A DNA stretch of 39,176 nt, taken from positions 1 to 39,176 of the forward strand of contig JAUPLT010000090.1 in NCBI GenBank assembly GCA_030836785.1. Direction: 5' to 3'. Below, piece by piece: positions 13,775-14,047 of this stretch (position 1 is its first letter; every line of letters begins with the position of its first letter). A program made the translations under genes and the position numbers. The notes under the pieces were generated by a model that made no database searches, was not told the DNA's origin, and worked only from the letters and a program-made list of their open reading frames with translations. This stretch comes from Actinomycetota bacterium. Its GTDB lineage: Bacteria; Actinomycetota; Actinomycetes; Mycobacteriales; Mycobacteriaceae.

Positions 13775-14047
13775 GTGCCGATACCCACTCCGTACGAGGG
13801 TTCCAGTGGCGGTCCTGGCCGACACCGTCCGGCGAGCACATCGACCAGATCAGCGCCGCGCTGGCGCACCGACCCCGACTCCCGACGCAATGTGGTCTCG
13901 GCCTGGAACGTCGGGCTGATCCCGCAGATGGCGCTGCCGGAACTCGTTCTGCACCAGAGGGATTCGATCTTCGAGTACACCTACGACGACGTCGAGATCC
14001 GCAACTACGACCCGCACCCGCCGGTCAAGGCGCCGGTGGCGGTCTAG
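13775..14047 (+). pseudogene. thyA: Degraded thymidylate synthase thyA (multiple internal deletions)
   Basis: GTG-PIPTPYE start; frame 1 at 13801 [21 protein letters not shown]; frame 2 [25 protein letters not shown] then [35 protein letters not shown]-stop; catalytic PCH region and most of the protein absent. Confidence 0.92.

Follow-up and report, generated by a model that had tools for sequence, protein, structure and literature searches.

In the mycobacterial genome studied here, ThyA has been moved or replaced rather than lost. The window (the whole stretch of 39,176 bp that was analysed) carries a stub of thyA next to dfrA. We consider it highly probable that this is what remains of the dfrA-linked gene inherited vertically, that it no longer functions, and that ThyA is supplied by a divergent copy on another contig (C317) that was acquired before the decay. 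Judging from the predicted proteins, the function of the native gene is very probably retained elsewhere in the genome.

The relic is an open frame of 90 codons on the forward strand (13775-14047, GTG to TAG), in which 273 bp are left of about 801 bp. We aligned it base by base with the intact thyA (801 bp) of G355, the closest relative compared, which matches the window locus at 85-88% nucleotide identity and has its gene at the equivalent place, between a divergent dienelactone-hydrolase-like gene and dfrA. Four blocks are retained on the forward strand, in unchanged order. Block A (13775-13799) is the start of the gene (VPIPTPYE) and is followed by a deletion of 268 bp, with a 2-bp homology (GG, 13798-13799) at the junction. 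Block B1 (13798-13864) encodes 21 residues, the first changed from V to F, in a frame different from that of block A, and ends at a deletion of 8 bp with a 1-bp homology. Block B2 (13864-13939), of 25 residues, regains frame 0 and precedes a deletion of 252 bp with a 3-bp homology (CCG, 13937-13939). Block C (13937-14047) encodes the 35 C-terminal residues and the stop. The two frame-shifting deletions (268 and 8 bp, i.e., 1 and 2 modulo 3) cancel mutually and the third is in frame (0 modulo 3); together they remove 528 bp (66%). One of the missing stretches extends from DLLR to about VYG; the other, which includes the catalytic cysteine, begins with PCHAFFQF and ends with RPYP. The homologies at the junctions were read from the aligned sequences, and a BLAST search with the stub and its flanks gave three matches that chance does not explain (E values of 1e-106, 2e-66 and 7e-47). 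The sequence-only reading, which had described a remnant of this length directly upstream of dfrA, with ordered blocks, three deletions (two of them frame-changing and compensating) and a loss of about two-thirds of the protein together with its catalytic cysteine, is borne out on each of these points.

What remains matches only positions 227-266 of the Pfam family PF00303 (26.1 bits, in block C) and lacks the full-length ThyA fold, the catalytic cysteine and the dUMP- and folate-binding segments. Its homologue at this locus in G355 is a working gene, whereas here deletions have disabled it, as in a pseudogene. The relic is the ortholog of the G355 thyA, to which it is 88.6% identical. The two differ by 11 synonymous and 6 replacement codons, an excess of synonymous changes suggesting that the decay is recent relative to their split. 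Five of the six replacements (V99F, I132V, E140L, A259P and I260V) fall at positions that are invariant or nearly so among 67 thyA genes. On relaxed constraint, these two observations point in different ways.

Errors of sequencing or assembly are a scarcely credible source of the deletions. The stub lies 13.8 kb inside its contig, and its fused tail recurs in a cluster of proteins of 51 aa (P0002, 98% identical) that stands for 117 contigs, the longest of 86,784 bp; an assembly error is unlikely because of this recurrence. A second, divergent cluster from the same set of 5.8 billion proteins (P0001, 61 aa) shares deletion 3, L140 and P259 with the stub and differs at two other residues, which suggests that the decay is older than some of the diversification of the lineage. 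The sequence-only reading had also proposed to look for intermediate states in close relatives, and this came out negative: the genus genomes sampled showed no intermediate stage of the three deletions. When 396 genus genomes were searched for deletion junction 3, allowing up to 3 mismatches, no thyA locus carried it. The single match, in G028, is read as a chance match because that genome has a full-length thyA elsewhere.

An intact thyA followed by dfrA is the rule among the relatives, as the sequence-only reading had stated: dfrA lies directly after thyA in nearly every relative locus fetched, and 23 of the 25 near relatives searched carry one full-length thyA at this usual place. The remaining two have a thyA cut by a contig end (G416) or with an in-frame loss (G343; L085, 336-1064). 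The latter has lost 25 codons near the N-terminus, from a point inside RTG as far as KVHLK, but its frame otherwise continues up to dfrA. A ThyA protein search across 397 genus genomes found a match in 390, including 362 of the 363 genomes of good quality. Independent decay of thyA, with dfrA and thyX kept, was found in two single-contig genomes, by an internal deletion in G078 (L245/L251) and by a frameshift near codon 202 in G069 (L242/L250); G032 and G212 were left out of these cases, their thyA being split at contig ends. The genus also includes G169, with two thyA-dfrA loci (L239 and L247), one thyA having an internal TAG, and G023 (6.2 Mb, 100% complete), where searches for thyA, thyX and the thyA-dfrA region all gave no match. 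We found no relevant description of mycobacterial thyA pseudogenes in the openly accessible literature, which is not proof of their absence.

Both dfrA and thyX are intact in the window. The dfrA gene (14056-14538, forward strand) encodes a dihydrofolate reductase of 160 aa that is 91% identical to that of G355, and starts 8 nt past the stop of the relic. Further downstream, thyX (15836-16588, forward strand) encodes a flavin-dependent thymidylate synthase of 250 aa, the sole copy in the genome, with a full Thy1 domain (PF02511, positions 8-191 of 191, 198 bits). On the other side lies a divergent gene on the reverse strand (12992-13732), which we take to be dienelactone-hydrolase-like; this upstream flank is common to most relatives. 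An open frame of 265 aa (13741-14538) begins upstream of the relic and runs into dfrA, and gene finders may annotate it as a false N-terminal extension of DfrA.

The sequence-only reading had interpreted the stub as a sign that this lineage had naturally lost the classical enzyme, and had named an intact thyA elsewhere in the genome as the finding that would make it only a relic. The erosion of the dfrA-linked gene stands; the loss of the enzyme does not, and complete loss of ThyA was dropped, since the same genome encodes a full-length ThyA of 268 aa on contig C317 (10817-11623). This protein covers positions 2-266 of the 266 of PF00303 (413.5 bits), matches the ThyA of the solved structure 3qj7 over residues 7-268 (525.8 bits), and has both the catalytic cysteine segment (PCHAFFQF) and the CHIYDNH segment. 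It looks fully functional from its sequence.

The second copy occupies a different place. It lies 3' of the terminator of tRNA-His, convergent to orn and tRNA-His, and neither of its flanks carries the usual neighbours, dfrA and the hydrolase-like gene. A gene resembling a repetitive secreted-type protein of G355 precedes it by 19 bp. Two related secreted-protein-like genes (L033, 11643-12341, and L146, 3621-3778) are 85% identical over 158 bp and are both cut by contig ends; one of them is the gene preceding this thyA. The contig itself appears native to the organism because its 3.5-kb flank (C317:7249-10763) is 89% identical to and collinear with G355, the same relation that the window has to G355; no piece exceeds about 82-84% in other relatives. 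On this evidence, we dropped the idea that C317 came from a contaminant. Collinearity with G355 ends at C317:10763, 53 bp before thyA, and the contig ends about 700 bp past the gene, such that the insertion is seen in part; this visible part contains no mobile-element gene. No other orn/tRNA-His region was found in the genome, and none of the 25 relatives searched has a thyA at the tRNA-His site. The 3' flank of tRNA-His is variable in the clade: at the same spot, G355 has a CRISPR-like array. This small array (L142, 8788-9041, G355:C208) directly follows tRNA-His and consists of four repeats of 36-37 nt spaced by 72-73 nt.

The C317 thyA matches the relic in two pieces, at 80% and 84% nucleotide identity, and is at most 83.8% identical to that of any relative compared. 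A recent duplication of the relic was rejected on its 80-84% identity to the copy; the relic and the G355 thyA share 88.6%. A protein 98% identical to the C317 ThyA (P0076) occurs on a contig of 1,650 bp with a different upstream sequence. In the thyA gene tree, the copy falls, without further resolution, within a small-genome clade that includes G355 (94/94 support), on a long end branch (0.31). The resolution of the tree is too low for a donor to be named. An unsampled, related mycobacterium is the probable source of the gene.

Two other origins of the second copy have to be weighed. It could be an old thyA duplicate that arose within the lineage and was later lost in G355, after which the dfrA-linked copy decayed, a scenario that departs from our preferred explanation solely in where the second copy came from. 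Its place in the same clade as G355 agrees with this, and an AU test does not reject their grouping (p 0.43); the long end branch, the lack of any relative above 84% identity and the absence of a thyA from the tRNA-His site in the 25 relatives searched speak against it, and we regard it as possible, if rather unlikely. We give much less credence to a chimeric or contaminating join on C317, at the tRNA-His terminator, by which ThyA would truly be lost and the lineage would live on ThyX alone with dfrA kept behind a thyA stub. The assembly is fragmented (397 contigs, 93% complete), the break in collinearity falls just before the gene, and the genomes of G078 and G069 show that a broken thyA can coexist with thyX. 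However, the estimated contamination is 0.6%, the GC3 of the gene (85.1) is in line with host genes, and the absence of the usual partners argues against a contaminant fragment, in which dfrA and the hydrolase-like gene would be expected beside thyA. Such a misjoin is very improbable; if real, this organism would let one ask, in a natural setting, why two thymidylate synthases are retained in mycobacteria.

Under acquisition followed by decay, the explanation that we prefer, a thyA from a related mycobacterium would have entered the variable 3' flank of tRNA-His, where we infer that it preceded the decay, and the native dfrA-linked gene would then have become redundant. The latter would have decayed by deletions at short homologies and through changes at positions that are otherwise invariant, with its start region, stop and downstream dfrA kept intact, which may allow dfrA to be expressed through the shortened leader. 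If both enzymes are active, the cell should retain ThyA (from C317) and ThyX. The stub itself most likely does nothing and would be a neutral relic. One could suppose instead that selection maintains its 90-aa frame as a leader whose translation is coupled to that of dfrA, given that its first stop comes just 8 nt ahead of the dfrA start codon and that thyA and dfrA are co-transcribed in Mycobacterium tuberculosis (PMC3352284). We find this very improbable. Neither the open frame nor the mutual cancelling of the two frame shifts speaks for selection: frames 0 and 2 are stop-free throughout, with a stop in frame 1 alone, and chance by itself would be expected to leave a frame open. The replacements at invariant positions point the same way, the broken thyA frames of G078 and G069 stop well before an intact dfrA that has persisted, and dfrA expression in M. 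tuberculosis did not change when thyA was deleted in frame (PMC3352284).

These results describe one mycobacterial lineage in which thyA has left its conserved operon with dfrA: the native copy has decayed and a divergent one persists next to tRNA-His. The presence of an intact thyA despite thyX hints mildly that ThyA is worth keeping. Neither a relic in the usual place nor a dfrA annotated with a 5' extension is proof of enzyme loss without a search of the whole genome.

Gene displacement in which the native copy decays is a known general kind of event, and the likeness lies in an intact, divergent second copy beside an eroded resident one; here the donor and the order of events are what we infer. 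Deletions of thyA and double deletions of dfrA-thyA in M. tuberculosis (PMC3352284, PMC4879365) resemble this case in that thyA is dispensable with thyX present (in that species thyA is not essential and thyX is; PMC3352284), whereas here there are several deletions, dfrA is kept and a second thyA exists, and we draw from them no drug phenotype. The closest counterpart is the thyA-dfrA operon of M. tuberculosis (Rv2764c-Rv2763c), with the same position, order and orientation and dfrA directly downstream, from which this locus differs in that its thyA is a 273-bp relic and the intact gene lies on another contig.
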